Assembly: GCA_934591845.1 (NCBI GenBank)
Contig: CAKTPO010000009.1
Location: 19,348-83,347, forward strand
Origin: an uncultured Oscillospiraceae bacterium
GTDB taxonomy: Bacteria > Bacillota > Clostridia > Oscillospirales > Oscillospiraceae
DNA length: 64,000 bases
Direction of reading: 5' to 3'
A model generated the notes under the pieces. The model saw nothing but the letters and a program-made list of their open reading frames with translations. It searched no databases and was not told the origin of the DNA. Below, piece after piece: positions 35,549 through 62,462 of the stretch (the first letter of the stretch is position 1; each line of letters opens with the position of its first letter). Made by a program: the position numbers and the translations under genes.

Positions 35549-35549
35549 G

Positions 35550-36766: not shown

Positions 36767-36785
36767 GCCATCACCTCTGTTAATT

Positions 36786-36826
36786 CTGTATATCACTATT
36801 ATATACAGTTAAAACAGCGTTGTCAA
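36786..36826 (-). promoter_or_regulatory. promoter and palindromic operator of the GntR-ABC operon
   Basis: On the minus strand TTGACA (36826-36821), 17-base spacer, TATAAT (36803-36798). The palindrome CTGTATAT-N7-ATATACAG (36786-36808) covers the -10 box and is the likely GntR site. Confidence 0.8.
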
Positions 36827-39946: not shown

Positions 39947-40285
39947 ATGGAACAAAGTCTACAAGCACTGTCCAAGCAGGAACGGCTGGAGCAGTGGAGT
40001 GGAAAAATTGCGGCCTGCCGTGGCAGTGGGATAACGGTTCGGGCGTGGTGTCAGGAACGTGGCATTTCGGAAAAAACGTATTACTACTGGCAGCGGCGGC
40101 TGTTTCAGGAATTAATACGCACACAGGCGCAGGGCAGCGGGTTTGTGGATATAACGCCAGCCAACGTAGGAGGCTCTGGCCAAATCGCCGCAAAGGTCCA
40201 TATCTTAGGTTCGGAGATTGAAATATACAACGGAGCGGACGCAGCGACATTGGAAGCGGTGTTCCGGGGATTGCGGTCATGCTGA
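39947..40285 (+). CDS. tnpA: IS66 TnpA
   Basis: A 112-residue small helix-turn-helix protein required for IS66 transposition. WSGKIAACRGSGITVRAWCQERGISEKTYYYWQRRLF is the family pattern. The ATG at 39947 is chosen over an upstream TTG because AGGGAG precedes it. It overlaps tnpB by 7 bases. Confidence 0.9.
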   Translation: MEQSLQALSKQERLEQWSGKIAACRGSGITVRAWCQERGISEKTYYYWQRRLFQELIRTQAQGSGFVDITPANVGGSGQIAAKVHILGSEIEIYNGADAATLEAVFRGLRSC

Positions 40286-40635
40286 GTGATTTTACAGGAG
40301 CTGACAAGGTCTACCTCGCCTGCGGCTATACGGATCTTCGGCTTGGGATCGACGGACTGGCTGCGCTGGTCAAGCAGCGATTTTCATTGGATCCTTTGGA
40401 GAACTGCCTGTTTCTTTTCTGCGGAAGAAGGCGGGACCGAATCAAGGCCCTATATTGGGAGGGAAACGGCTTTCTTCTCCTCCACAAGCGTTTGGAATCG
40501 GGCATCTTCCAGTGGCCGCGGAAAGAAAGCGAAGCCAAAGCCCTCACCATGCAGCAATACCGCTGGCTGATGGAGGGACTCAGCATTGACCAGCCAAAGG
40601 CGCATAGGCAGATAAGTGGATTGAAAATTGTATAA
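40279..40635 (+). CDS. tnpB: IS66 TnpB (Orf2)
   Basis: A 118-residue IS66 accessory protein with VYLACGYTDLRLGIDGLA, LFLFCGRRRDRIKALYWEGNGF, and WPRKESEA, all diagnostic. It is complete and overlaps tnpA. Confidence 0.93.
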   Translation: MLSDFTGADKVYLACGYTDLRLGIDGLAALVKQRFSLDPLENCLFLFCGRRRDRIKALYWEGNGFLLLHKRLESGIFQWPRKESEAKALTMQQYRWLMEGLSIDQPKAHRQISGLKIV

Positions 40636-40685
40636 AACGGATCATTTTTCTGTACTTTTCTACATTTATATGGTATAATCATTCC

Positions 40686-42287
40686 ATGAAAAAGACAGAT
40701 TCTTTCCAGACAAGCACCCCGGAAACCGTTACTATTTCCCGGGCGGAATATGAGGAACTTCAAGCTCAGAGCAGACGTGTTTCTGAGCTTGAGGGGCGTA
40801 TGAACGTACTCATGGAGGCACTGCGCCTTGCGCAGCGCAAGCGTTTCGGTGCGTCTTCTGAAAAGAGCGAGGACACACTCTCCGAGCAGCTGAGCTTTCT
40901 GTTTAACGAAGCGGAAGTGTTTGCGGAAGAACAGCGGAACAAGGAAGATGTGACCGTTGTAGCTGCCCATAAGCGTCACAAAAAGCATGAATACACGTTG
41001 GACAAAATCCCAGAAGATGTTCCGGTAGAACAAGTTGAGCACCGGCTGGAAGGACAAGAACTGGTCTGCCCCCAATGCGGTGGAGAGCTGACGGAGATTG
41101 GAAAAGAAGTTATCAACAAGATGAAAATCATTCCCGCACGGGTGGTTGTGGAACAGCATATCTACTACAGCTATGCCTGCCAGCACTGTAACAAGGAGAA
41201 TATTACAACACCTGTGGTACGTGCGCCCAGAGAGAATCGTTTCCTGCCTGGCAGTTTTGCTACGCCAGAGGCCGTTGCCCATATTATGACACAAAAATTT
41301 GTCATGGGTATACCCATCTACCGTCAGGAACAAGAGCTGGATCGCCGTGGTATTCAGTTAAGCCGACAGACCATGTCTAACTGGATTCTAAAAGCGGTAG
41401 AAGACTACTTAAAGCCGGTATATGACCGACTGCACCGGGAACTGCTTGTCCGAGAAGTACTCCATGCGGATGAAACGACGCTCCAAGTCCTCCACGAGCC
41501 TGGAAGAGCACCTCAGAGCGACAGCTATATGTGGCTCTACCGCACCAGCGGGGATACGCAAAAGCCCATTGTGCTGTACGAATACCAGCCGGGGCGGGGT
41601 GGAAAACATCCAAAGGAATTTCTGAATAGCTTCCATGGATACCTCCATACAGACGGCTATGCCGGGTATCATAATCTTCCGGAGGAGATAACCGTGGTTG
41701 GCTGCTGGGCTCATGCCCGTAGGAAATTTGACGAGGCGGTAAAATCTCTTCCAAAGGGAAAAGCCAAAGGAAGCTCCGCATCCCAAGGATTGGCGTACTG
41801 CAGTGTGCTGTTTGAAATAGAGCAGAGTCTGGAAGGGACAGCACCGGAAGAACGTTATAAGCAGCGGCTGAAGCAGGCAAAACCTGTTTTAGACGCTTTG
41901 TGGTCGTGGGCAAGTATCCGGAACGCCGCACCGAAATCTGCGCTGGGCAAAGCACTGACTTATCTGAAAGAGCAATGGCCTTACCTGACGAATTATCTGA
42001 AAGACGGCAGGCTGGAGATATCCAATAACCGGGCGGAACGGAGTATCAAGCCCTTTGTCATCGACCTGAAAAATTTCCTGTTTGCCAATACCCCAAAAGG
42101 TGCTGCCGGAAGCGCAGTTATGTTCAGCCTTATACGCACCGCTATGGAATATGGATTGGATCCCTACGAGTATCTTTCTCACACCCTCCGCATGGCAGCT
42201 AGGATGGATTTGACAAAACCTGAAAATGTTGCCGCATTGCTGCCAGAGAACGCTCCGTTGGAATGCAGAATTTCTGCTCCAAAATAA
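40686..42287 (+). CDS. tnpC: IS66 transposase TnpC
   Basis: A 533-residue DDE transposase. An N-terminal coiled coil (residues 15-45) and QRKRFGASSEKSE are followed by a zinc finger starting VCPQCGGELTEIGKE and continuing SYACQHC. The catalytic region has HADETTLQVL, HTDGYAGYHNL and SNNRAERSIKPFVI, giving the D, D and E residues. It appears complete, so the element may be active if its right end is present. Confidence 0.93.
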   Translation: MKKTDSFQTSTPETVTISRAEYEELQAQSRRVSELEGRMNVLMEALRLAQRKRFGASSEKSEDTLSEQLSFLFNEAEVFAEEQRNKEDVTVVAAHKRHKKHEYTLDKIPEDVPVEQVEHRLEGQELVCPQCGGELTEIGKEVINKMKIIPARVVVEQHIYYSYACQHCNKENITTPVVRAPRENRFLPGSFATPEAVAHIMTQKFVMGIPIYRQEQELDRRGIQLSRQTMSNWILKAVEDYLKPVYDRLHRELLVREVLHADETTLQVLHEPGRAPQSDSYMWLYRTSGDTQKPIVLYEYQPGRGGKHPKEFLNSFHGYLHTDGYAGYHNLPEEITVVGCWAHARRKFDEAVKSLPKGKAKGSSASQGLAYCSVLFEIEQSLEGTAPEERYKQRLKQAKPVLDALWSWASIRNAAPKSALGKALTYLKEQWPYLTNYLKDGRLEISNNRAERSIKPFVIDLKNFLFANTPKGAAGSAVMFSLIRTAMEYGLDPYEYLSHTLRMAARMDLTKPENVAALLPENAPLECRISAPK

Positions 42288-44117: not shown

Positions 44118-44684
44118 CTACATATCGGACATTTTTCCAATGCTCAATAAAATCGCTTCCAAACACATGCCACAGATCACAGGATAATATAGCATTGGGA
44201 GCTTCAGATAATATGCCACAGCGACTGTTGCGTCACAAATGAGCAGCAGCCACAGGCAGATTTTTCGGTATCTGCGCTTTTCTTCAGCATCCAGAGGCCT
44301 TTCTCTGCTGTCCAGGGGAGTGAACAGCAAAAGGCATAGATTGCCGAAAAAAAGCAGCGGCAGGGCTTTCCCATTTGAGGCTTCCAGCGTTTTGATAGCA
44401 GCTACAGCAATTCCCATCGCCAATGTGGTCCAGCCAGTGCAGGATGTTTCCGTTTTGGCATGTACCCCTCCCGCATAGCTTCGCAGAAGAATGAACACAA
44501 TATAGAAAATAACACTTTCCCACGGGATTCTCAGGAAGAAGCCAAAAGCAATGGTCACCAGGAAAAAGTAAAAACGTGTAATCAGCAAGAAAAAACCATA
44601 AATGTATAGTTCCCTATCCCCCTCCTCTACGACGGACACCGCAATCAGTTTCCGCACAATGCGTTCTGCAAGCTTGGTTGCCAT
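44118..44684 (-). CDS. agrB: AgrB-like peptide-processing membrane protease
   Basis: Membrane cysteine protease that trims and cyclises the AgrD precursor. The 188-residue protein has four or more hydrophobic helices. The catalytic histidine and cysteine are in RSYAGGVHAKTETSC near residues 68-82, spaced as in the AgrB family. The ATG overlaps the agrD stop (TAATG). Confidence 0.9.
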   Translation of the reverse strand: MATKLAERIVRKLIAVSVVEEGDRELYIYGFFLLITRFYFFLVTIAFGFFLRIPWESVIFYIVFILLRSYAGGVHAKTETSCTGWTTLAMGIAVAAIKTLEASNGKALPLLFFGNLCLLLFTPLDSRERPLDAEEKRRYRKICLWLLLICDATVAVAYYLKLPMLYYPVICGMCLEAILLSIGKMSDM

Positions 44685-44830
44685 TACTTGCTGTTCTTGA
44701 AGCGCTTTAGTGCAGCGGGTGCTTTTGGCTGGTAGATACCCATGCAGGTTGTCCGGTTTGCATCTCGGCGCAGTGCATGCTCCGCAGCCTTTTTAGCAAC
44801 GGTTGCAATCAGGCTTTTTTTGCTCTTCAT
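44684..44830 (-). CDS. agrD: AgrD-like cyclic lactone autoinducer precursor
   Basis: A 48-residue peptide. The N-terminal amphipathic helix (KKSLIATVAKKAAEHALRRD) is followed by the predicted signal core TTCMGIYQPKAP and a charged tail (ALKRFKNSK). Cys29 would form the thiolactone, most simply with Tyr33 to give the five-residue ring CMGIY. GGAGGTGA lies before the ATG. It is too short for standard gene calling, but its overlap with agrB makes the call firm. Confidence 0.9.
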   Translation of the reverse strand: MKSKKSLIATVAKKAAEHALRRDANRTTCMGIYQPKAPAALKRFKNSK

Positions 44831-45047
44831 AGCGTTCACCTCCTTCTGGCGACAAAATAACATGTCTTTTGCAGCTTTTCAATAGCTCAATCAAAAGTGC
44901 GGATTATACGCGCAAAACTGCAAGGATTCATATTATTAGTTGTAGATATCTATAAAATCATCACAAACTAATTGTTTTACAGATATGTTCTATTGCAGTT
45001 TGTTCTCGTTTCCTGAAAAACATGGTATTTTATCCAAGGTGATCAAT

Positions 45048-45359
45048 ATGGATGTTGATAAAAAGCTAATTGGAAAGCGTATTCGGCACCGACGTGAAGT
45101 CGCAGGCCTTTCCCAGGAGCAGCTGGCTGAAAAGTTAGCACTTTCCACCAACCACATTTCCAGTATGGAGTGTGGGAAAAGTCTGCTCACAACAAAACGA
45201 CTGTTGGATTTATGCGATATACTTGGCGGCACACCAAACTACTACCTGCTGGGCGAAATTGGGCCAGAGGCGGACAGGATAACCACCCTTATTCAGAAGC
45301 TGTCCCCCAGAGAGCAGAAAACTCTATGCCACCTTTTAGCAACGTATCTCCTAGAATAA
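45048..45359 (+). CDS. XRE-family helix-turn-helix regulator
   Basis: A 103-residue DNA-binding protein (KKLIGKRIRHRREVAGLSQEQLAEKL, then STNHISSMECGKS). The ATG at 45048 follows AAGGTGAT; a longer frame to 44985 lacks a site. It is divergent from agrD and followed by a strong terminator, so it may regulate the agr operon. Confidence 0.85.
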   Translation: MDVDKKLIGKRIRHRREVAGLSQEQLAEKLALSTNHISSMECGKSLLTTKRLLDLCDILGGTPNYYLLGEIGPEADRITTLIQKLSPREQKTLCHLLATYLLE

Positions 45360-45456
45360 CCCTCCCTGATACTTTTTTGCAAAAATGCAAGGAATCTGTG
45401 CAAAAATGCTGGTTTTTCTATTCTTCGCGGATTTGACGTTGACCTTCAATAATGAT

Positions 45457-45500
45457 AAAATAGGCTTACGATGTTTTGTCGCATCGTAAGCCTATTTTTA
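45457..45500 (+). terminator. strong hairpin between the XRE gene and the response regulator
   Basis: Perfect 17-base stem AAAATAGGCTTACGATG and complement followed by TTTTTAT, 13 bases before the next start. It ends the XRE transcript or attenuates the response regulator gene. Confidence 0.85.
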
Positions 45501-45512
45501 TGAGGTATCTAA

Positions 45513-46211
45513 ATGAAAATTTTGATTTGCGATGATGAACAGGCCTATCTGAACACACTTAGAATTCACATTGAAGAATATATGAAAAATCACCATATTC
45601 CCTGCGCCATCACTGCGGTGGTAGACCCGCTTCAAATTGCCCAGGATGACACCGTATTTGATCTTGCGTTTCTGGATATTCAAATGCCAGGAGTGGATGG
45701 TATCACGTTGGCAAAGGAGCTACGGCAGCGCAATCCCAAGCTGGCGCTGTTCTTTGTAACCAACTATGATTGCTATCAGGATGATGCCATGGACCTCCGG
45801 GCGTTTCGCTTTTTTGAAAAGCCCTTTAACGCTAATCGGCTGTATGCCGGCCTTGACAAAGCTATGGAATACATCGACGGGGCCTATGTGGATCTGTTCC
45901 TTTCTGAAAATGGGGCTATGCAGCGGGTGATTGCGGACGGTATTCTCTATGTGACTCGAGACGGCAGACGAGCGAGTGTCGTCACATTGGGGAAAGTGTA
46001 TTCCACAGCTGACAAATATGATGATCTCTGTGAGAAACTGCCGCAGCTATTCTTCTACCCTGTCCATAAATCTTTTTTCGTCAATCTCCACTATGTAGAC
46101 CGCTACACCTACACAGAACTGCTTCTTTCTGATGGAACCAAAATTCCTATTGCGCCGAGGAGACAATCCGCTTTTCACAAATTCTGGTTTGAATACTTGC
46201 GGAGGAAATGA
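45513..46211 (+). CDS. LytTR-family response regulator (AgrA-like)
   Basis: A 232-residue two-domain protein. The receiver has DDE at residues 8-10, the phosphoacceptor Asp in AFLDIQMPG near residue 55, and FEKPFN with the conserved Lys. The C-terminal LytTR domain includes FYPVHKSFFVNLHYVDRY, and the end is basic. ATGAGG precedes the ATG. The next gene, a GHKL kinase, starts directly after its stop. Confidence 0.9.
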   Translation: MKILICDDEQAYLNTLRIHIEEYMKNHHIPCAITAVVDPLQIAQDDTVFDLAFLDIQMPGVDGITLAKELRQRNPKLALFFVTNYDCYQDDAMDLRAFRFFEKPFNANRLYAGLDKAMEYIDGAYVDLFLSENGAMQRVIADGILYVTRDGRRASVVTLGKVYSTADKYDDLCEKLPQLFFYPVHKSFFVNLHYVDRYTYTELLLSDGTKIPIAPRRQSAFHKFWFEYLRRK

Positions 46212-46212
46212 T

Positions 46213-47481
46213 ATGCTGAATCCCTTATTTTCCCTCTCTGTGTATTTAATTGAAATGATAATCTCCTATATTTTCTTCTCCTCTCTAGGGAAAAGAAGGA
46301 TGGATACTCTAAAAACAATTATAATGGGCACCCTTCTCTTTACCTTTGGCTCTACAGTAAATGTGCTGTTCAAGAATAATGGCCCAATCAATGCGCTTAT
46401 AACATTAATAGTTAATATTGTTTTTGACTGTTTCTGTTTTGACAGCACATTATTCAAAAGCTTTTTCTACGCCTTTATTCTCGACATTCTAAATATAGCT
46501 CTTGAAGTTGCCGTTATTACCCTTAGTTCCTTTGTCATTCGTGATAACTTTTCTAGCTATAACAACAACTTCCTACTTCTTGTTTTCCAGACCATTACAA
46601 TCAAAACTCTGTATTTTCTTATTATTCTTGTCCTTGTTAAAATGATTCGCCCAGGGGACACACAAGATTCGATCCCACTGGATTTCCTTGTGTTTCCAGT
46701 GTTGACCACCGTGTGCCAAGCAATATTCTGGTATATTTGTGCGCAGCTGGACACATTTTACGAAATACAGTTTCTCCTGTCTATTTCCAGCGGTTGTCTC
46801 TTTATTGAGACTGTTCTCCTTTTCTTTACCTATTCTCACCAAGTAAAAAAGGAACGTCAGACAATGCAAATCCAGAGCGAACTGAATAGGCTTCAAACGG
46901 AGCAGTCATACTATCAAATTCTGGATCAGCAAAATCAGCAGTTAATGATTTACGCACATGATGCAAAGAAGCACCTCGCTGCAATTCAGGCCCTGAATGA
47001 AGATCCGGCAATCGGAAGCTATGTAACAAAACTGTCTGAACAGCTAAAGGACTACTCCAAAAGCCACAGCAGCGGAAATAAACTCTTGGATGTTATGCTG
47101 CACAAGTATGATATTGACTGTAAGATGCGGGGGATCACCTTTGAATACGACGTCAAGGTTTGCAATCTTTCTCAATTGGAGGATATTGATCTGGTTGCAA
47201 TCCTTGGTAACCTGCTGGACAATGCGGTCACCGCTTCCGAACAGTCGTCTGAAAAATGCATTTCTCTGACAACTGTATACCGCAACCGTTACAGCGTCAT
47301 CATCGTCAGTAACAGCTGCGATACTCCCCCAAAACAATCTGGACACCGCCTGATCTCCACAAAATCCGGAGCCGGTTTCCACGGCTTTGGCATGAAAAGC
47401 GTTGCTAAGTCCATTAAAAATACGACGGCGATTATGAATGGGATTATGATGCGGAGAGGCAATTGTTTACTGTTACCGTAA
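46213..47481 (+). CDS. AgrC-like GHKL sensor kinase with frameshifted C-terminus
   Basis: Membrane sensor of the agr peptide. The first ~215 residues hold six or so helices. A coiled segment follows with IYAHDAKKHLAAIQAL (His of the H-box) and the ATP-binding part with ILGNLLDNAVTASEQ (N-box) and GFHGFGMKS (G-box). After that the frame becomes unlike the family. One base ahead the other frame reads KYDGDYEWDYDAERQLFTVTVM, the expected GHKL end, stopping at 47501. The shift sits in a run of five A (47416-47420), where six would restore the frame. Either a real mutation or a homopolymer error. GGAGG precedes the ATG. Confidence 0.85.
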   Translation: MLNPLFSLSVYLIEMIISYIFFSSLGKRRMDTLKTIIMGTLLFTFGSTVNVLFKNNGPINALITLIVNIVFDCFCFDSTLFKSFFYAFILDILNIALEVAVITLSSFVIRDNFSSYNNNFLLLVFQTITIKTLYFLIILVLVKMIRPGDTQDSIPLDFLVFPVLTTVCQAIFWYICAQLDTFYEIQFLLSISSGCLFIETVLLFFTYSHQVKKERQTMQIQSELNRLQTEQSYYQILDQQNQQLMIYAHDAKKHLAAIQALNEDPAIGSYVTKLSEQLKDYSKSHSSGNKLLDVMLHKYDIDCKMRGITFEYDVKVCNLSQLEDIDLVAILGNLLDNAVTASEQSSEKCISLTTVYRNRYSVIIVSNSCDTPPKQSGHRLISTKSGAGFHGFGMKSVAKSIKNTTAIMNGIMMRRGNCLLLP

Positions 47482-47629
47482 TGGTTTCTACGCATTTATA
47501 AATAAATACGCCAAAATTTATGAAAGAATATTGGTACCATCGGTGATTAAGTGCTACAACAACATTAGGTGATTTGCCTTTCCCATGTATATTTCATCTA
47601 ACAACGACCAGCGACCATTGAGGATTTTC

Positions 47630-48010
47630 ATGCCTTTTGGTGGGAAACTACTGAAAAATAAACGTTGGGTAAGGCTGGCTTCTATGATGCCATGAAAGCA
47701 TATTGAGCAATCTGGGTGGAGTCCTTCCAGTCAAAAAAGACCGTCCGGCATTATCTTCACGGATTACGTTTGACGTTATTTTTTATCAAGGGGAAATGAT
47801 AATCTGACCGGCGAGAGTACTGCCGATGCCATCGTGGAAAATTCGTACATGCAGCACTTTCTGAGATAGACAGCACTTCTGGCAGGACTATTATTTGCCC
47901 TCTCTATGATGGTGCACTTTCGCAAGCGTTTTCTGGTAGAAGAAGTAGGTAAAATTAACGAGTACATTTTGCACCGGGGTATGGCGGGAATAACATCGTA
48001 ATGTTGACGG
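47630..48010 (+). pseudogene. decayed IS5/IS1182-type transposase
   Basis: Recognisable pieces in different frames: MPFGGKLLKNKRWVRLASMMP, then TGA where the family has Trp; LTGESTADAIVENSYMQHF near 47,800; and SMMVHFRKRFLVEEVGKINEYI near 47,900-47,960. Several stops and shifts break it, and only the N-terminal third is represented. The rest of 47,502-48,394 shows no gene; a direct repeat GTGTAATTTGCAT/GTGTAAATTGCAT lies at about 48,113-48,151. Confidence 0.65.
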
Positions 48011-48394
48011 TAATTGAAAATGTTGAAACCGAGGCAGACCAGATCCTCGTAGTCATTAACGCCGCTCAAACTCTGGGAAATTGGCTTTTGCTTTTTTAGG
48101 AATAAGGTTTGAGGTGTAATTTGCATCTACAAGGGTGTAAATTGCATTTTCAGTAGAGACTAGTTCGTCAATAATTCATATAGGTTAAAAGAAAAAATAT
48201 TGTCATATGTTTTGCTTTTTGAAGTATATGACAAGAAAGATTTCCCACATACAACAGTTGAAAAAATCGCATCTGTCCCAAGGCCAAGTATCCATTAATG
48301 CAAGAAGCCCTAGTATTAATGAAATAACAATGAATCCTGATTCACCCTATTTAATTGGTGTGTTTCCACGAAAAAAGAAAGAGAGTGTGCTTGT

Positions 48395-51300
48395 ATGGCA
48401 GAGATTCGGAGAACGAAGTATATTCTACATGTGTCTGATTTCCATCTTTCGTTGGAAAATGAGGACTTTGCACGGGAATGCCTTAAATTTCTGTGCGACT
48501 CCATAGATGATAAAAATATTACGATTGACTATTTGATCCACACAGGGGATATTATCGATGCACGTAGATCATATTCTACTGCGATAGGTGATTTGGAAAG
48601 AGAAGACTCATCATTAGGATGGATTCGCCAGAAATATTTATCAGATGATGGCCTTGATGAAAATGAATTTATAAAAGATCCCAGGTTGACAGCAGACATT
48701 TTGCAGAGAATGAACAATCATATCTTCGAAAATGCAGAAAATACGTTCACGAACATTGCGGGGACTGTAAAGGAATTTCTGGCGAATATTCGTGTGAGAA
48801 AAAGATATACTTATTTTTGCGTTGGAAATCATGACACAATACGACCAATTTTAACAGAAAGTACAGATATATGTAATAGATTAGAACAAGACGATGGGGA
48901 TGCGCATGAATACCATAAAACCCTTTTAATGTTTGAAAAAAAGCACAAACTATTTGATGCATATACAGTTTTTCTACATGAATTAGGGGTTTGGAATGAT
49001 AAATTGACCGAGACCTGGGATCAAACACCGGATCTTAATCTTGTAATACTCAATACAAATCATCAGAATCCAGCAAGAAGCAAACAGGAGTATCACTGCG
49101 TAGACTGTCAAAGCGCAACGAAGGCTCTCAATCATTTTGGTACAGATCGAGATGACAAGCGTCTTAACGTTGTAATTTCGCACAAACCGATTTATGAAAT
49201 CTGCGAAGCAGTGCGAATGGCGTTTGATAGCTATCACAAAACAGAATTTATGACGGCAATGCAGCGCTTCTTAGGTGAAAATGGTATATATGTTTGTGGT
49301 GATAAGCATACTCGCAGCGTGTCTGATATGACGTTCCATAATGTTCGCCATATTATTGGCGGTGCTCCTTTGCGACCCAAAGGTGGCCAGAGGGTTTTCC
49401 AAGTAGAATATAACTTAATTGAATTAACTGAGGGGAAGATCGGGAATACCCAAAAAATACATATATCTTATGATCAGATTTCTAAGAAATGGTCTTGTAC
49501 CTTTCGACCCGAAGATAGCGTTGTTGAAACACTTTATGAGTTGAGCAAATGCTCTATTATACCGCAATGCCTGTCTGTGCTTTTACTTGATAAAAAAGCA
49601 AATTCGTGGTTTGATATTAGCCGTATCTTTTTTATCGATATGCACAATCCGGCGAAGTGGACCGGGTTAGAAAAAAAGTTAGACACGCTTTCTCATATCA
49701 TCTGCAAATATTGGAAAATGTCCCCCGATACTGCTGCGGGCAGAAATCCATTGATGGAATGGGACAAAAGAAAAAATGAGATGTCAATCTTTCACAATAC
49801 CCGTGATTATCTGATTGAAAAAATGAGAAGCCCTTTCACAAACGACCAGAACAACATCCTTAATATACGGGGAGAGTACAGTGCAGGTAAAAGCACATTC
49901 CTTGGAATTTTATATATTTATTTACTATTTCAGTATAGCGTAGGAAATATTGATTTCATTCCGGCATATTTTAACTTAGAAAATATGGAAATATTAGAAA
50001 AGATCACAGAAAGTACAGATATGCCATATAACAGAGTTGCGGCGAAAGCGTTTGCGCAATTTGTTAGGAAGGTACAAGCAATTTCTGAGAAATCACATCA
50101 AGCCGTTTGCTATATAATTGACGGACTGGATGAGCAAGATGTTTGGAGCTACAGCAGTGAAGACAGTATCGGGAGAGGTATTTTGGATATTATTAATACG
50201 GCTCCAAACTCCAAGAACATAATGTCTTTCAGTCAACACCACTTGCCGCTTTTTAAAAATACTATGCCGGAGCGTAAATACAACGATTATAGCGATGTTA
50301 TGTATTTCAATAATGTGCACACCATTTCTGCTGAATGTGGTAGTGAACGTTTTACTCAGTTTATAACGGCATTTTATTCCTTAAAGGAGGAGCAGAATCG
50401 TTCGGGAATACAGAACGTAGGAACAGCCCCCGAAGATGTGGACCCAAATAGAGTTAACAATATCTGTGAGCTGATTCACAAATTTAGAAGGCTATCAGTC
50501 AATCAAAATTTCTTGTATAAGTTTGGCGGTTATTTTGATGAAAAACTGGATTCGGTTGATTCACCGGAAGTGATAACTGTTGATAGCGTATACCGAAATT
50601 ACATTGACCTACTTCATAAAATGTGTATGGATACGCTCGGATATGGATATGTACATTATGCACCAGCTATGGCGTATTTATTTTCTTATAAGGGATTCAC
50701 TTATGAGCGTTTTAGAAAAATTCCTCTAAATAGTGAAGACCATTGGTATAATGAAATTGCAAAATACTCTGGCTCAGTATATGATGCGTTTATTTTTATA
50801 AAGAAGAACCAAGATATTCGAGAGTATTTAATTGCGATGCACTATAATCGAGAACTTCGATACTACGCAGAAAATCCTGAAATTCCCATATCTGAATCTT
50901 CAATTCTGAACGAGTTTATTCCTAGGAACGTTGCAAGTCTGTCACGAAGAATGTGGAAGAACGACCCTAACAAATTTGTGATCGTGTGTGTAGAGCTCTT
51001 AGAAAAAAGGAGAGATCTTGGACAAAAGCCCCTCTGTAATTGTGCTCTTTCTATGCTAATGTATACTTTGGCGCATCAAGAAAAGATGTATGCTCCCAGC
51101 AATACAAAGCTGGGAAAAATCATCTCCTCTTATGAGACTTCTTCAGGGAGAATTAGCGATACTCCTAATGGCGGTTTTTCCTATACTGCAAAGAAATCTG
51201 ATATTTTGCAGCTTTTTTTGGAATATAGTTTTCATCGTACATATAGGCTGTATAAAGCAGAATTGGAAGGCAACTCCGAGAAACTGGCACTAACTTTGAG

Positions 51301-51754
51301 TGAAGATACAGACTTTGCTCTTTATAATCGACAGTACCTCCTCCTGTATTATGGGGATATTACGATTAGTGGAGAAAACCGAAAAGCAGCGCTTGTTCCG
51401 GGACTGGATATTTGTCAAAAGGGGTTCGACTTTCATAATACATTCAATTTTCTCAGTGAAAAGCTGAATTATGCTGAAAAGGAAGCGTATGCATTGAGAG
51501 CGTATGACTTGTTTTCATTGTGCAATTTAATTGAGAGCAGATTAAATACACACTTAAGTTATCCGCAAAGTAATGGAACTTTTTTTAGCGGGAAAAAGAA
51601 TATTAATACACAAATCGGTGTGCTCGGTAATGCTATTCGCTATATCAACGAATATCCGGAGTCGGAGCATTCTGTTAACAACATCTTTAGGAACATCCTC
51701 TACGATTATAAAAAACAATTCGAGAGGGCAATAGAAGAGCGACTGAAAAACTAA
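48395..51754 (+). CDS. metallophosphoesterase-STAND NTPase fusion, candidate defence protein
   Basis: A 1119-residue cytoplasmic protein. Residues 1 to ~370 form a calcineurin-like metallophosphoesterase with all metal motifs: DFH (15-17), GD (51-52), GNHD (144-147), SHKP near 262 and GDKH near 301. Residues ~455-640 form a P-loop NTPase of STAND/NACHT style: Walker A GEYSAGKST near 492 and Walker B CYIIDGLDEQD near 575. The last ~450 residues are helical and unrecognised, a possible sensor. No membrane segments or signal peptide. Base composition is far more AT-rich than the core. The FRG-domain gene follows 215 bases later in the same direction. The layout, effector-NTPase-sensor, is that of STAND anti-phage proteins, but function here is inferred. 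Confidence 0.75.
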   Translation: MAEIRRTKYILHVSDFHLSLENEDFARECLKFLCDSIDDKNITIDYLIHTGDIIDARRSYSTAIGDLEREDSSLGWIRQKYLSDDGLDENEFIKDPRLTADILQRMNNHIFENAENTFTNIAGTVKEFLANIRVRKRYTYFCVGNHDTIRPILTESTDICNRLEQDDGDAHEYHKTLLMFEKKHKLFDAYTVFLHELGVWNDKLTETWDQTPDLNLVILNTNHQNPARSKQEYHCVDCQSATKALNHFGTDRDDKRLNVVISHKPIYEICEAVRMAFDSYHKTEFMTAMQRFLGENGIYVCGDKHTRSVSDMTFHNVRHIIGGAPLRPKGGQRVFQVEYNLIELTEGKIGNTQKIHISYDQISKKWSCTFRPEDSVVETLYELSKCSIIPQCLSVLLLDKKANSWFDISRIFFIDMHNPAKWTGLEKKLDTLSHIICKYWKMSPDTAAGRNPLMEWDKRKNEMSIFHNTRDYLIEKMRSPFTNDQNNILNIRGEYSAGKSTFLGILYIYLLFQYSVGNIDFIPAYFNLENMEILEKITESTDMPYNRVAAKAFAQFVRKVQAISEKSHQAVCYIIDGLDEQDVWSYSSEDSIGRGILDIINTAPNSKNIMSFSQHHLPLFKNTMPERKYNDYSDVMYFNNVHTISAECGSERFTQFITAFYSLKEEQNRSGIQNVGTAPEDVDPNRVNNICELIHKFRRLSVNQNFLYKFGGYFDEKLDSVDSPEVITVDSVYRNYIDLLHKMCMDTLGYGYVHYAPAMAYLFSYKGFTYERFRKIPLNSEDHWYNEIAKYSGSVYDAFIFIKKNQDIREYLIAMHYNRELRYYAENPEIPISESSILNEFIPRNVASLSRRMWKNDPNKFVIVCVELLEKRRDLGQKPLCNCALSMLMYTLAHQEKMYAPSNTKLGKIISSYETSSGRISDTPNGGFSYTAKKSDILQLFLEYSFHRTYRLYKAELEGNSEKLALTLSEDTDFALYNRQYLLLYYGDITISGENRKAALVPGLDICQKGFDFHNTFNFLSEKLNYAEKEAYALRAYDLFSLCNLIESRLNTHLSYPQSNGTFFSGKKNINTQIGVLGNAIRYINEYPESEHSVNNIFRNILYDYKKQFERAIEERLKN

Positions 51755-51969
51755 GTGATGTATTTCCTTGGGACCGTATAGCTGGCGCAACCTAGACTAT
51801 TTTGTATACTGTTGAGATGTCGTTTGCAACACAGCGAGCTAACCCAATAGATTGTGCCCGATGACAAAACAGCAGAATTAAATGACAAGAATGTTTATAT
51901 GGAAAAATACCACTATCAGATTGACAAAGAGTATAGCTGACAGAAAATGTATGAAAAGGAAGAATTGTA

Positions 51970-52968
51970 ATGGCAGAGATAGCGACAGTATCCAATTTTA
52001 TTGATTTCATTCGAGAAATTCAGGAGTCAATGCATTCTCCCCTGGCATTTCTAAAGGATGCCGAGCAGATAATGAACGTGAAGATTTCTGATATAAGTCC
52101 TGCTACTATTGAGCGCGGAAAAGAGTATGTTGCAGCACTTCTCAGCGAGGAAAGGCATGATAAACCTAAAAATCAGGAACATAGGAGATTTTACCGTGGG
52201 CACTATTCAACACACTATGATTTAGTGCCCAGTGCTTTTCGCGGACACAACTGGGGTAGGGAAGATTATTACTATCATGAAATTGCGGTTCGAAGTCCTG
52301 AGTTTTTCCAAGGAAAAACTCACCTGGACAGGCTTGTTACTATGCAACACTATGAATGTCCAACGCGATTGCTGGATATTACATCAAACCCACTGGTGGC
52401 GCTATTTTTTGCATGTATGAATTATGGATGTAAAAAATGCGATGCATCCACGGAAGGGGTTGTCTATGTATTCGATGAACCTTCTACAAATGTAGTGTAT
52501 GCGGATAGTGACCGTTCGCTAATGCTTGCATGCCTGGCTAGGTTTAGTGAGGCAGATAAAATGAAAATGTATGAGCTTGCAAGTTTAAGAATAGGCGAAG
52601 GTGGGTTTGAGAAGAAAGGCGGGAACGGCGGCTATAAAGACGTTATAATAGAAAAACTATTTCATGAAATTGCTAGGGAGGTACCCGCTTTTAAACGTGA
52701 AATAAAGCCACTGGATTTGCTCAAACCACTTTTTGTACAACCCAATAGAACGAATATGAGAATCACCAAGCAGGATGGAGCGTTTATTTTATCAGGTTTA
52801 TGTAAAAATGCAGCAGAGGCGCAAACAAAACTTGAACTATGCGTTCATAAAAAAATTCACGTAGTTAATCAGGACGGGATTCTACGTGAATTAGAACAAC
52901 TTGGTATACATGAAGCATCGCTGTTTCCAGAGTTGGATAAAGTGGCGCATTATCTGAAGACCAGATAG
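51970..52968 (+). CDS. FRG-domain protein, partner of the STAND gene
   Basis: A 332-residue soluble protein. Residues ~70-180 carry the FRG domain: RRFYRGHYSTHYDLVPSAFR, then TMQHYECPTRLLDITSNPLVALFFACM, both strongly conserved in the family. The C-terminal half (from about residue 185) is unrecognised. AAGGAAG precedes the ATG. Both this and the upstream gene begin MAEI. FRG proteins are common in defence and toxin contexts, but their activity is not established as far as I know. Low GC like its neighbour. Confidence 0.75.
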   Translation: MAEIATVSNFIDFIREIQESMHSPLAFLKDAEQIMNVKISDISPATIERGKEYVAALLSEERHDKPKNQEHRRFYRGHYSTHYDLVPSAFRGHNWGREDYYYHEIAVRSPEFFQGKTHLDRLVTMQHYECPTRLLDITSNPLVALFFACMNYGCKKCDASTEGVVYVFDEPSTNVVYADSDRSLMLACLARFSEADKMKMYELASLRIGEGGFEKKGGNGGYKDVIIEKLFHEIAREVPAFKREIKPLDLLKPLFVQPNRTNMRITKQDGAFILSGLCKNAAEAQTKLELCVHKKIHVVNQDGILRELEQLGIHEASLFPELDKVAHYLKTR

Positions 52969-53011
52969 GGCGGATATATGGAATGTGAGCAGGTTTGGCA
53001 GTAACAGAATG

Positions 53012-53630
53012 GTAAGTACTCAATAACATGCGCCTAGTGTCTCCCCTCCCCCGGTACTATGAGATAATATTTTAAAACTAGAAGAACTTAAGGTAAATTT
53101 TACATCTTTAGGGATATTATCTTGTATGGAATGGTGATATATTATTACATTGCCTGTGGCTATACGGACCTCCGTCTGGGGACTGACGGTCTGGCCGTGC
53201 ATGGCGACCGAATGGAGCGCAGAAGCACCGCTACCACATCCATATCTACGCCGGACGGCAGCTTCAATTTGGCTCCACGATACCGGATTTGAAGTTCCTC
53301 CTCAACAGACGAGTCCGCTTCCAGCGGTACCAGCTCCGGTGCGGAGGCCGCTATTTGCGTGCGAAGTTTCTTCTGCCAGTAATAGAAGCTCTTTTCCGAA
53401 AGCCCATGCCGGATGCAGTACTCCTTGTTCGTCAGCCCTCTGGCCTTGCATTCCTGAATTACCGCTGCCCATTGGATTTGCCAGTATTCATCCCGAACGG
53501 CAAGGATATCTCCCATTTGCTCACCTCATTTTCTAGTTTCTCAAATAGCTGAGGCTCAGCTATTTGAGATTTGGGATATTATCTCATAGATGTGGGGGAA
53601 ATGCTAGGCGGGGGATTATTGAGCACTTAC
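53012..53630. mobile_element. IS66-derived relic with two inverted left ends
   Basis: The two ends are imperfect inverted repeats of about 60 bases, each starting GTAAGT(A/G)CTCAATAA and each containing TATGAGATAATAT, a sequence also found in the left end of the intact IS66 at 39.87 kb. Inside are a plus-strand tnpB start (53,146-53,199, reads YIACGYTDLRLGTDGLAV) and an opposed tnpA. No tnpC. It is a rearranged, presumably non-autonomous remnant. Confidence 0.65.
53160..53516 (-). pseudogene. IS66 tnpA in the relic, 3' end replaced
   Basis: Reads ECKARGLTNKEYCIRHGLSEKSFYYWQKKL, a good TnpA pattern, to about AVLLRSIRS, after which the frame runs into antisense tnpB sequence. A perfect 13-base hairpin (53,540-53,568, CTCAAATAGCTGA and complement) precedes the start. 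Confidence 0.7.
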
Positions 53631-55115: not shown

Positions 55116-56219
55116 TTATACTGCTGGCATCCCATATCCCAAAATCACGCTGCTTCCAAGAGAATACTGTTTTTGTTTGCACATATCCCTGGAATTGCCC
55201 TCTACGGTATAGACCATTCCATTCTCCACCTTTTCCACAATGCCCACATGGTCTGGCACACCGTCCTGGGTGGCCCAATCGAAGAAAATGAGCATCCCCG
55301 GCGCAGGCTCTGCAGAGCCGTCCAGCCAGAGGCCGCGCTGCTGGAACCATTGCATTCCGAAGACGCAGCCGGAGAATTTGGGGTAGGCTCCGCTGTCCAG
55401 GTAGCCGCATTGGTCGGCGCACCAGGTGACGAAGCAGGCGCACCATTCCACATGGTTGGAAAAGCCGTACCAGCTCCAATAGGGCTCGCCGCCCACGTTG
55501 CCCACCTGGGACAGAGCCACATCCACAATAACATCCCCGCCCTCCGGGGTGTAGAACACCTTGCCGATGGGGTAGTACCGCAGAACATGGTGGACATACT
55601 GCTTGTCACCGTAGCTGTTCCAGCCCATCTGTTCTGCCATTTTTAAGGAGAACTCAATGGCGTTTACACGGGAATACTCGCCGTATTTTTGCAAGGCCCA
55701 GGTAATGTAGCCGCTGCCAAAGTTATAGCCTTGGAGGGCCAGCTGAATATGATCCAGGTCAATGGGACTTTCGACTCCGGCTGCCTGCAAGCAGTCCGCA
55801 AGATTCTGGATGCCCACCACAATGGAATACTCCGGGTCTGTAATGCCTCCGGGGGTTCTGGGGTACTGGGTGTTATACCTGCATTCGGAAGCCTGCATGG
55901 GGTCATTCCCTTTGCCGCCGGATTCCTGCATCATAACGGCTTGAATCAGCAGAACATAATCCGGGATGCCATACTGCTTGGCATATTTGCGGATGACCGG
56001 CTCGTAGGCTTCCACCTCCGCACTGAGGGGCAGGGTTTCGGTGGATTCGTCCTGGCTTCCGAAGATGGCGGCACCGCAGCCGATGAGGACAACAATAACG
56101 ATCACCAGAACGGAAGCAACTCCACCAGCGGCAATGGCTGTGTATAGTGCCTTTGCCGCCTCTGCCGCAGACCTGGCCAACTTTGCTGCCAGCTCTGCGG
56201 CTTTCTTTGCGGCAATCAT
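55116..56219 (-). CDS. ICE cell-wall hydrolase (lysozyme-like plus CHAP domain)
   Basis: Opens the peptidoglycan for the conjugation channel. The 367-residue protein has a cytoplasmic A/K-rich start, one membrane helix (about residues 31-52), then a lysozyme-like domain (VLLIQAVMMQESGGKGNDPMQ with the catalytic Glu, and LALQGYNFGSGY) and a C-terminal CHAP/NlpC domain (VEWCACFVTWCADQCGY with the Cys, DHVGIVEKVENG with the His). Two-domain architecture as in CwlT of Tn916. Its ATG overlaps the stop of the upstream gene. Confidence 0.9.
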   Translation of the reverse strand: MIAAKKAAELAAKLARSAAEAAKALYTAIAAGGVASVLVIVIVVLIGCGAAIFGSQDESTETLPLSAEVEAYEPVIRKYAKQYGIPDYVLLIQAVMMQESGGKGNDPMQASECRYNTQYPRTPGGITDPEYSIVVGIQNLADCLQAAGVESPIDLDHIQLALQGYNFGSGYITWALQKYGEYSRVNAIEFSLKMAEQMGWNSYGDKQYVHHVLRYYPIGKVFYTPEGGDVIVDVALSQVGNVGGEPYWSWYGFSNHVEWCACFVTWCADQCGYLDSGAYPKFSGCVFGMQWFQQRGLWLDGSAEPAPGMLIFFDWATQDGVPDHVGIVEKVENGMVYTVEGNSRDMCKQKQYSLGSSVILGYGMPAV

Positions 56220-57127
56220 GGCCTTGTGGCGGTAGCAGCGGCGTGGGCGTTTTTCTGGGCGGCGGCTACGGTGGCCTTTTTCGCTTCCCGGAATGCCTGC
56301 GCTGTTGTGGTATCAGCAGCTTTGGTGGCAGCACCTTCGGGTGTTTTGATGGGTACGGCCCCCTGCCTTGTGCGGATGGGAACACCGGCTTTCTTCTTAA
56401 TAGGGACCTCAACGGATGATGTGGGAACTTCCGGTGCGGAGCCGCCATTGTAGAGGCTTTGTGCCGGAGGTGGCTTCACCACCTTTATATCAGGCGAAAA
56501 TGCTGGAGTGGCGTCCTGAGAAATGCTTTCCGGGATGCCGGTATTCTGCGCCAGTTCGGAACGAAGTGCATTCTTCTGTTCCTGCTTCTGCTTTACAATA
56601 TTTTCCGCAGCGGCCTTGCGGGCAGCCTGCTGCTGGGCGGGTAACAATGGGGCTTCCACCGCAGAGGATACTGCCTCTTGCTGCTCCCTCGTCCGAATGG
56701 GACGAGGGGCTTGTACTACTCTGCTTTGAGGCTCCGGCGGCTCTGTGGCGGTTTGCCTAACTGGATCATGCCAACGAGAAGCCTCTGCAATCTGCCAGCG
56801 AACCGCAGGATTCTCGGAATATTCCATAGCAGCAGAGCCAGCCGGAGAAGAATCGTAGGTTGGTACACTGTCGCCACTTACAGGCGTATCACCCCGTTGC
56901 CGAATTGCCCGAACGCTTTTCCCTGTGAATACCCCCACATCCCGAACGGCATCCTCTGCCGTCCGGGAGATTTTTTCTTCCGCATAATTGCTGGGAGAAT
57001 CCGGCTGCTCCGACTTCCGGTGCGCCGCCTGTTCCGCTTTGCTCCGGACAAAGTTTCGCTGCATCTGCCGTTGAGCCGTATTCACTATCGGCTGCCCTTT
57101 ACGCTGCCTTGTCTTGATTTCCGGCAA
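56216..57127 (-). CDS. ICE protein of unknown function, disordered, upstream of the wall hydrolase
   Basis: A 303-residue hydrophilic protein, rich in A, P, Q, E and R, starting MPEIKTRQRKGQPIVNTAQR. It includes NYAEEKISRTAEDAVRDVG and proline-rich stretches, ending in an A/K-rich tail. In related elements such a segment precedes the lysozyme protein, sometimes in one polypeptide; here the two frames are separate but overlap (ATGA). Probably cytoplasmic part of the transfer apparatus. Confidence 0.65.
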   Translation of the reverse strand: MPEIKTRQRKGQPIVNTAQRQMQRNFVRSKAEQAAHRKSEQPDSPSNYAEEKISRTAEDAVRDVGVFTGKSVRAIRQRGDTPVSGDSVPTYDSSPAGSAAMEYSENPAVRWQIAEASRWHDPVRQTATEPPEPQSRVVQAPRPIRTREQQEAVSSAVEAPLLPAQQQAARKAAAENIVKQKQEQKNALRSELAQNTGIPESISQDATPAFSPDIKVVKPPPAQSLYNGGSAPEVPTSSVEVPIKKKAGVPIRTRQGAVPIKTPEGAATKAADTTTAQAFREAKKATVAAAQKNAHAAATATRP

Positions 57128-57142
57128 TGGCCTCGCCTCCGA

Positions 57143-59479
57143 TCAGGACTGACCGGCGAACCGCCCTTCACCGGGGCGGGTGGTCATAAGCTGGTAGAGC
57201 TTGGTATTTTTTGGAAAACGGTTGATGAAAGGCACCAGGGCACTGCCGTATTTGATAAGGCCGGAACCGGCTTCCACATTGGTGATGTAGTTCATCTGCT
57301 CGTTGGAAATGTTCAGGAGTCTGCCCAGCTTTTCCCGGTCAGATGCCGCCTGATTCAGCATAACAATGAATTCGGAGTTGGAAAGCATGGTGCTGGCCTG
57401 CACAGAATCCAGCAAATATTCCACATTCTGGGTAATTGCTGTGGGAAAAACGTTGCGCTTTCGGAACTGCCGCCATGCGGAATTGAAGAAGGCGGCGGAG
57501 AACTCATTTTCAAAAACCACATGAAATTCGTCAATGAATACATGGGTCCGTTTTCCTTTCTTCCAGTTCAGGGTCACTCGGTTCAGCATGGTGTCCGTAA
57601 TGACCAGCAGGCCGGTGGGCTTCAGCTGCGCACCCAGGCCATGAATGTCAAATACCACCACCCGCTTATCCAGGTCAACATTGCTCTGTTTTCCGAAAAT
57701 ATCCAGAGAGCCGGTGGTGTACAGTTCCAAGGACAGTGCAATCTGTTTTGCTTCCGGCTCCGGCTGCTCCAGCAAGGTGTCCCGCAGGGTGCAGAGGGTG
57801 GGAACCGTCCCTGTATAGGCTGCATTCCGGTAAACCATCGTAATGCACCGGTCAATAATGGATTTGTGCTGGGGACCAACCCCTTTCTTGTCGATCTGCT
57901 CGATCAGGGACATGATGAACTCGGACTTGACCACAATGGGGTTGTTCTCCCCATAGCCGTCCACCATGTACATGGCGTTGAGCCAATCCCGTCCGCCTGC
58001 GGAAACATGGATCACGGAACCCATATCCCCCATAGCCTCCACCAAAGGGGCGTACTCCCCTTCGGGATCGCAGACAAGAATGTCGTCCTCGGTGTTCAGC
58101 ATCAGGAAGGTCATCAGCTCCTTGGCAGAGAAGGACTTGCCGGAGCCGGGAACACCCAGCAGGAACGCGGACTGGTTCAGCAGATTCTCCTTGTTGCACA
58201 TGATAAGGTTGTGGGAGATGGCGTTTTCTCCAAAGTAGATACCGCCTTTGTCCATAATCTCCTGAACCTTAAAGGGCATGAACACCGCAAGGCTTTCTGT
58301 GGTCAGGGTGCGGAAGGCGTTGAGCTTCCGGGTGCCAATGGGCAGGACTGTGTTCAGTCCATCCATCTGCTGATACTTGAGAACCGCCATCTGGCACATG
58401 CGCTTCCGGGCAGTGGAGAGAATGGCATCCGTATCCATATCCAGATGTTCCTTGGTATCCGAGGTAATGACCATGGTCAGGATACCGAAGATCATCCGCT
58501 GGTCACGGGTGGTCAGATCATCCAAAAACTCCTTGCTTTCCTTCCGCTGCAATTCCATGTCATAGGGAACAACAGCGGAGAAATTGTTGTTGCTGTTCTG
58601 GCGGCGCTGCCAGTTGGTGATGTTTGTCTCCACACCGAGAAGCCGGTTTTCCACCTCCCGCACAGCCTCGTCTGTGGGAATGGGTACCATGTCAATGGAG
58701 AGCATCATGTCCCGGTTCAAATCCGTCAACTCGGATACGAAATCATCCTGAATGTAGCTGGCGTAGTCCTTGAGGTACAGTACCCTGGCGTACCGTTCCC
58801 CGATCTGGAGATAGTCGCTGTGCCGTTCCATGGAATCTGGGCAGATGTAGTCCCGAAAGCTGTGACCCTTCCGGGCAGAATCCCGGAGAGAGAAGCGGAA
58901 CTCATTTTCTTCTCCCCTGCGGTAGAAGCGGTGGAGAATTTGCAGCCGCTCCATGGCATTCATGGGTCCGCAGGTGGAGCCAAGGGCAGCGAAGTGAGAG
59001 GACAGGTCTGCTTCCACACGGGCAAAGAAGCTCCGGGCGGCATCCACATCCTTTTTGCGGACGGAAACGGTCAAAAATTTCTCCTGGACAATGCCGTTGC
59101 CATTGGTGGCCTTGTCCAGAAGCATCTGGTTGTATTCCTCCCGGTAGTCGTCCAGGCCGTCCCACTGCATGGGCATGAGGATGGACTTTTCAAAATTGAT
59201 CTGGCTCATCTTATGGTTGAAAATGGTGATTTTGGTGGTAGCTCCGCAATCCAGACTGTTGATAAGGGCAGAGTAGCCCCGGAACATCTTTTCCTTGTCC
59301 GGCTCTGAGGCCACCTGATAATTGATGTCCGTGAAGCGGAAGGTTTTTGCGTACCGTCCACCGGTGAGGGAAATTCCGTCCTCCCAGATTTTCTGAATGG
59401 GGATCACGTCCTGGACACGGCGAGGGATCACGTATTTCTCCTGATCCTGTCGCACTAAAGTACGAATGGATTTCATCAT
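57143..59479 (-). CDS. VirB4-like conjugation ATPase
   Basis: Motor of the type IV secretion channel. The 778-residue protein has Walker A LGVPGSGKSFSAKE near residue 445, and Walker B in THVFIDEFHVVFEN. TAITQNVEYLLDS and FIVMLNQAASDREKL follow in the C-terminal ATPase core. The start overlaps the prgI stop by 4 bases. Complete and intact. Confidence 0.93.
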   Translation of the reverse strand: MMKSIRTLVRQDQEKYVIPRRVQDVIPIQKIWEDGISLTGGRYAKTFRFTDINYQVASEPDKEKMFRGYSALINSLDCGATTKITIFNHKMSQINFEKSILMPMQWDGLDDYREEYNQMLLDKATNGNGIVQEKFLTVSVRKKDVDAARSFFARVEADLSSHFAALGSTCGPMNAMERLQILHRFYRRGEENEFRFSLRDSARKGHSFRDYICPDSMERHSDYLQIGERYARVLYLKDYASYIQDDFVSELTDLNRDMMLSIDMVPIPTDEAVREVENRLLGVETNITNWQRRQNSNNNFSAVVPYDMELQRKESKEFLDDLTTRDQRMIFGILTMVITSDTKEHLDMDTDAILSTARKRMCQMAVLKYQQMDGLNTVLPIGTRKLNAFRTLTTESLAVFMPFKVQEIMDKGGIYFGENAISHNLIMCNKENLLNQSAFLLGVPGSGKSFSAKELMTFLMLNTEDDILVCDPEGEYAPLVEAMGDMGSVIHVSAGGRDWLNAMYMVDGYGENNPIVVKSEFIMSLIEQIDKKGVGPQHKSIIDRCITMVYRNAAYTGTVPTLCTLRDTLLEQPEPEAKQIALSLELYTTGSLDIFGKQSNVDLDKRVVVFDIHGLGAQLKPTGLLVITDTMLNRVTLNWKKGKRTHVFIDEFHVVFENEFSAAFFNSAWRQFRKRNVFPTAITQNVEYLLDSVQASTMLSNSEFIVMLNQAASDREKLGRLLNISNEQMNYITNVEAGSGLIKYGSALVPFINRFPKNTKLYQLMTTRPGEGRFAGQS

Positions 59480-61316: not shown

Positions 61317-62462
61317 ATGAATAACAGAGCAGGTTGCTTTATAACCAATCTATCCGGGGAGATGGCTTATCAGTCTTTTCGCCCCAATCCGCTTCCCCCA
61401 GAGCCGCCAATAGAGATGAGCAACGAAATGATTGCCAAGTTGGTGGATGCAAATAGAAAGCTGGCCACGTTGGATGGCCTGTCCTCCCGTATCCCAAATA
61501 TGGACTTGTTTGTTTCCATGTATGTACGGAAGGAAGCATTGCTATCTTCTCAGATTGAAGGAACACAGTGTACACTGGATGATATTCTGAATCCCTTTGC
61601 GGAGGAAAATACCAATCTGAATGTATCTGATGTTGTGAACTATATCCGGGCGGAGGAATTTGCAATTGATCGCCTTCAGACTCTCCCCTTGTGTAATCGT
61701 TTGATTAAGGAGACCCATGCTGTTCTGATGGAAGGTGTCCGGGGTCAAGAAAAGAATCCCGGTGAATTTCGCTATTCTCAGAACTGGATCGGCGGTCAGG
61801 GAAGCACATTAAGAAATGCACGGTATATCCCGCCGAATCCGGAAGATATGATGAATGCCATGTCCGATCTGGAGAAATACATGAATGGGGAGGATTCCCT
61901 TGACCCACTGATCCAGGCAGCATTGATCCATTATCAGTTCGAAACGACCCATCCTTTTTTAGACGGAAATGGCCGGGTTGGGCGGCTCCTGATTACGCTG
62001 TTCCTGATGGAGAAGAAAATACTTTCCACCCCGTCTGTCTATATTTCCTATTTTCTGAAAATGAATCGAATCGAATACTACGACCGGATGACACAGGTGC
62101 GAAAAACTGGGGATTATGAGCAGTGGATTCTATTTTTCCTGCAAGCATTATCTGATTCAGCCGAAGATGCGATTCAAACGATTGATGAACTTACGAAAAT
62201 TCACAATCGGAATGCACAGAAATTTGAAAACATGACAAAGCGGCAACAGGCCAACGCAATGAACTTCCTTATTTATCTGGAAAAGAACCCCATTATCGAT
62301 ATTCAAAAGACTGCGGCAGCCCTGAATCTATCCTATAATACAGTCGCAAAAAGTGTTGCCCTTTTTGTGGATAATGGGATTTTACAGCAAACAGAAAAGT
62401 CAGGAAGATCAAAAATATATTCCTACGTAGATTATCTTGCGGTTTTGAGAAAAGACACTTAA
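61317..62462 (+). CDS. Fic-domain AMP-transferase-type protein with C-terminal winged helix
   Basis: Fic enzymes usually transfer AMP to a target protein. The 381-residue protein has the catalytic motif HPFLDGNGRVGR near residue 212, complete, and the inhibitory helix motif SSQIEGT near residue 79. This single-chain arrangement keeps the enzyme off by default. The C-terminus (FLIYLEKNPIIDIQKTAAALNLSYNTVAKSV) is a winged-helix DNA-binding domain that may act on the palindromes upstream. GAAAGGAG precedes the ATG. The insertion lies on the plus strand within a minus-strand operon. Confidence 0.9.
   Translation: MNNRAGCFITNLSGEMAYQSFRPNPLPPEPPIEMSNEMIAKLVDANRKLATLDGLSSRIPNMDLFVSMYVRKEALLSSQIEGTQCTLDDILNPFAEENTNLNVSDVVNYIRAEEFAIDRLQTLPLCNRLIKETHAVLMEGVRGQEKNPGEFRYSQNWIGGQGSTLRNARYIPPNPEDMMNAMSDLEKYMNGEDSLDPLIQAALIHYQFETTHPFLDGNGRVGRLLITLFLMEKKILSTPSVYISYFLKMNRIEYYDRMTQVRKTGDYEQWILFFLQALSDSAEDAIQTIDELTKIHNRNAQKFENMTKRQQANAMNFLIYLEKNPIIDIQKTAAALNLSYNTVAKSVALFVDNGILQQTEKSGRSKIYSYVDYLAVLRKDT

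Follow-up and report, generated by a model that had tools for sequence, protein, structure and literature searches.

In a stretch of 64,000 nucleotides from contig CAKTPO010000009.1 of an uncultured Oscillospiraceae bacterium, hereafter called the window, two genes lie on the same strand, 215 bases apart. The first encodes a protein of 1119 residues, in which a metallophosphoesterase (MPE) is followed by a STAND-type P-loop NTPase and a helical C-terminal region (the MPE-STAND or window protein), and the second encodes an FRG-domain protein (coordinates are given in Table 1). Both genes are AT-rich, with a GC content of 37.6 and 40.9%, respectively, compared to 50.9% for the window. This composition as well as the FRG-domain gene in the same direction had been recognised in an initial annotation, which regarded both genes as one candidate two-gene defence system. 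Here, it appears reasonably likely that they are two adjacent candidate anti-phage genes in one mobile region, which act separately.

The MPE-STAND and FRG proteins

For the window protein, a homologue search covering 5.8 billion proteins was performed. Among 4003 scored candidates 133 relatives were found, and the 120 matches listed display identities from 93% down to 32%. The window protein and 42 of these 120 relatives were combined in an alignment of 43 rows, termed A1.

Calcineurin-like metallophosphoesterases are characterised by the metal motifs D-x-H, GD, GNH[DE], H and GHxH, the last of which usually has the form G-H-x-H. The window protein matches the Pfam family PF00149 (Metallophos) above its cut-off (E 1.4e-5), as do all 43 rows of A1. 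The initial annotation had claimed that every metal motif is present. This holds for the first four, D15-x-H17, G51-D52, G144-N145-H146-D147 and H263, which are invariant in 43/43 rows; the last motif reads G302-D303-K304-H305 in every row, a family-wide substitution compared to G-H-x-H. Furthermore, C142, C235, C238, C270 and C301, five cysteines that all lie within the MPE, are invariant among the aligned rows.

Within the NTPase, the P-loop residues G493, K499, S500, D576 and D579 are kept in all rows and E580 in 40 of the 43, so that the Walker A motif and the hhhhD-G-x-D-E Walker B motif of STAND/NACHT proteins are both present. The proposed fusion of a STAND-type NTPase to the MPE was thereby confirmed. 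Weak Pfam matches to P-loop NTPases were obtained for some rows only, namely to NPHP3_N (6/43), KAP (2/43) and NACHT (2/43), and a single row matches the PADLOC model 'Effector, Endonuclease' (2.3e-11). The long helical C-terminus described before is seen as helices in the secondary structure of an AlphaFold2 (AF2) model.

A pattern scan of a collection of 84,980 genomes yielded 36 pattern matches, which led to three related MPE-STAND loci (L001, L002 and L003). Two of them come from metagenome-assembled genomes (MAGs), one of Lachnospiraceae and one of Clostridia, and the third from 'Bacterium 1XD42-1'. Over 1113 codons, the window protein and its L001 relative share 79.8% amino acid identity, with 0.11 nonsynonymous (dN) and 0.94 synonymous (dS) substitutions per site and a dN/dS of about 0.12. 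An open reading frame (ORF) arising by chance is therefore ruled out for the MPE-STAND gene, which is kept under purifying selection.

The FRG protein matches the PADLOC family PDC-S15 from residue 34 to 331, thus over most of its length and with no clear difference to this family or to the Pfam FRG domain. Its structure model resembles ADP-ribosyltransferases (ART), weakly but consistently, and an ADP-ribosyltransferase fold is probable on the basis of this model. Relatives of the FRG protein are 41-94% identical among the matches listed; in four annotated records the genes span 1335-1704 bases, and the ORFs in 62 IMG/VR loci encode 152-511 residues, some of them being cut.

Relation to DS-8 and other described systems

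The family of the window protein is present in two of 397 genomes of the family of genome G001, one of these being a weak match in genome G348, and in one of 396 genomes of the family of genome G003 (E 1e-20), which is G003 itself. A weak match (E 2.5e-7) in one of the 397 genomes revealed an MPE-STAND protein of 1087 residues (L092), which represents a sister family. Here, 147 relatives of L092 were found among 7995 scored candidates, and the family occurs in three of the 397 genomes (E 1e-60). Some members carry the Pfam domain NACHT (PF05729) together with PF24406 or PF20720, which we take to be nSTAND-type. In an alignment of 21 members among the matches listed (A3), the last metal motif is G-H-x-H without exception. 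A profile-profile comparison of A1 with A3 gave a probability of 96.4 and an E of 1.1e-9 over residues 10-610, spanning MPE and P-loop, and places D303 opposite the first histidine of the G-H-x-H motif. The C-terminal part of the window protein's family did not align to the sister family in this comparison.

At one sister-family locus (L096), the MPE-STAND gene lies between apparent conjugation-type genes and IS66-type ORFs, as read from the translations. It is followed at 11403-14959 of L096 by three genes, the last with a P-loop, which resemble a multi-gene ATPase system; none of the three has an NCBIfam match.

DS-8 has been reported as a single-protein anti-phage system, consisting of an SMPDL3A-like metallophosphatase and a NACHT domain (PMC13092281). 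In E. coli, changes of the phosphatase site or of the ATPase site each abolish defence, and the substrate is unknown (PMC13092281). The system, which belongs to the DefensePredictor systems, is described by the NCBIfam model NF053861 (DS8_antiphage) with a cut-off of 790 bits. All 21 rows of the sister family match this model (best E 2.9e-67), near full length where ranges are given; the two rows with a score given reach 199 and 181.7 bits, less than the cut-off demands.

The window protein shares with DS-8 an N-terminal, SMPDL3A-like metallophosphatase and a NACHT-type P-loop NTPase within one protein (for DS-8: PMC13092281), and a remote homology exists by way of the sister family. In contrast, its last metal motif is G-D-x-H, with G-H-x-H at this position in the sister family, its MPE part contains the five invariant cysteines, and its C-terminus is the part that cannot be aligned. 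Furthermore, the window protein does not match NF053861 at E up to 1, and DS8 is absent among the eight families matched by any of the 43 rows of A1 (E up to 0.01). The missed model together with the G-D-x-H motif ruled out that the window protein is a member of DS-8 itself.

Two further models are related. The PADLOC candidate PDC-S60, likewise an MPE-STAND protein, is matched by 26 of the 43 rows (best 9.9e-19, E up to 0.01), whereas the window protein itself remains unmatched up to an E of 1; for L092 and two of its listed relatives, of which P0241 is the same protein as L092, the matches range from 1e-103 to 1e-115. The MPE domains of DS-9 (NF053862) and DS-8 are related, and the DS-9 model DS9_1 is weakly matched by 31 of the 43 rows (best 7.8e-8), but not by the window protein. 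In contrast to the latter, DS-9 is a two-gene system of an MPE and a HAD phosphatase, with no FRG protein named in the accessible part of the report (PMC13092281).

The initial annotation had compared the window protein to Avs/AVAST proteins. These have an effector-STAND-sensor order, which, with a presumed sensor, is also that of the window protein; they are not known to use an MPE as effector. An AVAST5 chain is found among the weak Foldseek matches for the model of the window protein. Within PADLOC, which presumably includes Avs models, no family was matched by the MPE-STAND protein at E up to 1. The MPE had also been suggested as a new type of effector. However, calcineurin-type effectors N-terminal to STAND NTPases have already been listed (PMC8195603), calcineurin-type phosphoesterases are among the effectors of conflict systems (PMC7159879), and DS-8 has been tested (PMC13092281).

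An effector-STAND-sensor layout with a role in defence, as initially proposed, is the best reading, because the DS-8 architecture blocks phage and because relatives of the window protein match models of defence candidates. STAND proteins serve in regulation as well, and the family is rare, with three related loci from the whole genome scan. Both points would fit a regulator or a stress-response NTPase unrelated to phage defence. Against the same DS-8 precedent, the relatives' matches to defence models and the mobile setting, such a role is distinctly unlikely.

One system or two separate genes

An alternative to separately acting genes is a true two-gene system, in which a molecule derived from NAD would be made or consumed by the FRG protein and would either be cleaved by the MPE-STAND protein or regulate it. 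The shared strand, the short distance and the AT-richness of both genes would fit to this, and DS-9 provides a precedent for two-gene MPE systems (PMC13092281). Furthermore, the identity steps among the closest relatives are similar for the MPE-STAND and the FRG protein; due to this, both genes may have been inherited together within the small clade. No terminator-like site is present between the two genes, although promoter-like sites in this interval are no more frequent than expected by chance. In total, 20 promoter-like sites (19.3 expected) and two terminator-like sites (4.8 expected) were counted, numbers near or below expectation, which therefore hold no information.

On the contrary, an FRG gene was found at none of the three related MPE-STAND loci within the available DNA. 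All three are cut or broken: the L001 record ends 683 bases past the MPE-STAND gene in an IS66-type element, the L002 relative is a broken copy split over three frames, and the L003 gene is incomplete at the contig end. Within the closest clade, the two genes may therefore still be linked. For the sister family, none of the three loci (L092, L095 with 3659 bases, and L096) contains an FRG gene. Conversely, there are phage and plasmid records with relatives of the FRG protein that lack this MPE-STAND protein, and a window-type MPE-STAND protein is present in 0/62 IMG/VR FRG loci (tblastn, E 1e-3, which is too weak for DS-8-like ones).

At the level of genomes, FRG relatives occur in 12 of the 397 genomes of the family of G001 (E 1e-20). 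G001 and G348 are not among these twelve, and the contexts of the five best of them contain no MPE-STAND protein of the window's family near the FRG gene. Searches of four genomes (G001, G002, G003 and G348) and of 398 genomes of the family of G002 (E 1e-40) gave no FRG match; both lacked a positive, so that for the four genomes the empty answer is uninformative. Finally, the longest-contig values of 120 listed homologues of each protein have one value in common, compared to 0.575 on average and at most four in 120 shifted lists, a comparison that did not show a co-inheritance but is weak, since the value apparently belongs to the cluster representative only, each list ends at 120 entries and no positive control was included. 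The sole shared value (6865) comes from different sources for the two homologues.

An obligate gene pair is therefore not supported, given the three related loci without FRG in the available DNA and the FRG relatives without MPE-STAND in phage and plasmid records. Both genes of the initially proposed two-gene system were found together neither at these loci nor at any of the 62 IMG/VR loci, and we regard such a system as unlikely. A published description of this MPE-STAND/FRG pair was not found in the open-licence literature.

For two separately acting genes, the analysis provides the domain content, the invariant metal and P-loop residues, the selection on the MPE-STAND gene, the remote DS-8-like homology and the weakly ART-like FRG model. 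The window protein, a NACHT/STAND-type immune receptor with the MPE as its N-terminal effector in this reading, most likely adds a new branch to the DS-8-like architecture, a divergent family that would work like DS-8. Sensing, oligomerisation, the MPE substrate and any phage effect of both proteins are inferred. An infection cue would be sensed by the helical C-terminus of the MPE-STAND receptor, after which the NTPase would oligomerise. Brought together in this way, the MPE domains would cleave a phosphodiester by hydrolysis, which may be a nucleotide signal, a cofactor or nucleic acid, and the phage or the infected cell would be stopped. The FRG gene most likely acts independently of the MPE-STAND gene; its product, which is of the PDC-S15 type and probably has an ADP-ribosyltransferase fold, would on its own act on NAD+.

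Mobile setting and meaning of the MPE-STAND family

Downstream of the two genes, IS66-type remnants are present in two orientations, at 53011-53140 and 53200-53630, the latter aligning to the IS66-type end in L001. A frame similar to the relic ORF at 53160-53516 occurs at 39992-40279, directly ahead of the IS66 transposase of an element elsewhere in the window. Further downstream, genes of the type found in integrative and conjugative elements (ICE) lie at 55116-59479, in agreement with the ICE noted initially. As flanks of the pair, a dead transposase and an IS66 relic had been described. The relic was recovered, the transposase was not: upstream, eight intergenic fragments out of 23 stop-to-stop frames listed at 47490-48380, as well as an ORF at 48207-48506, have no Pfam match, and a plasmid DNA search with this stretch gave no match.

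At the DNA level, the window and L001 are homologous from 28 bases upstream of the ATG up to a point 21 bases short of the window gene's stop codon, at an IS66-type element. This break, the IS66 relics beside the two genes and the split L002 copy could also point to decayed cargo, i.e. non-functional genes between insertion sequence remnants. Since both ORFs of the window are intact with invariant motifs and the dN/dS of the MPE-STAND gene is low, this is very improbable.

Other genes of the window are listed in Table 1. At 9001-10000, the AT skew of 0.325 has the greatest magnitude of 64 one-kilobase steps.

Table 1. Features of the window; positions refer to the 64,000-nucleotide stretch.
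Feature	Position	Strand	Remarks
MPE-STAND protein, 1119 aa, intact ORF	48395..51754	+	MPE, then STAND-type P-loop NTPase, then helical C-terminus
Metallophosphoesterase domain	48395..49510	+	about residues 1-372
Variant last metal motif G302-D-K-H305	49298..49309	+	invariant in 43/43 rows
STAND-type P-loop NTPase	49832..50575	+	about residues 480-727
Walker A	49871..49894	+	residues 493-500
Walker B	50108..50140	+	residues 572-582
Helical C-terminal region, presumed sensor	50576..51751	+	about residues 728-1119; AF2 model secondary structure
FRG protein, 332 aa, PADLOC PDC-S15 family	51970..52968	+	PF08867 E 3.4e-16; PDC-S15 E 3.1e-73; weakly ART-like model
Pfam FRG domain	52189..52425	+	residues 74-152
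IS66-type accessory ORF, relic	53160..53516	-	HTH_Tnp_1 E 4.5e-5, 24.0 bits, just under Pfam cut-off of 24.1
Membrane-type ORF, up to 318 aa	53706-54662	-	no Pfam match
ICE-type gene, lysozyme-like/CHAP protein	55116-56219		downstream
ICE-type gene, TraG/HerA-type ATPase	57143-59479		downstream
Fic/DOC protein with Fic_N domain	61317-62462		near ICE-type genes
agr-type cluster	44118-47481		upstream; AgrB (PF04647), HTH regulator, LytTR response regulator, GHKL histidine kinase
IS66-type element	39983-42287		frame like the 53160 relic, then apparently complete transposase 40686-42287, 533 aa
PIN_3 domain protein	33943-34368		near GntR/ABC transporter set 34919-36796

There is a slim chance that a Clostridia-related clade has coupled a DS-8-like receptor to an FRG ADP-ribosyltransferase-like enzyme, with an NAD-derived molecule as substrate or trigger of the G-D-x-H phosphoesterase. 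Such an NAD-derived circuit from FRG to phosphoesterase in STAND immunity was not found described in the open-licence literature.

With the window protein, MPE-STAND immunity as reported for DS-8 in E. coli (PMC13092281) would be extended to a divergent family of at least 133 protein clusters. With its G-D-x-H motif, this family provides a naturally altered metal site, which may be useful toward the identification of the substrate of MPE-STAND effectors. If the FRG neighbour is functional together with the MPE-STAND protein, NAD+ chemistry would be linked to a STAND phosphoesterase.

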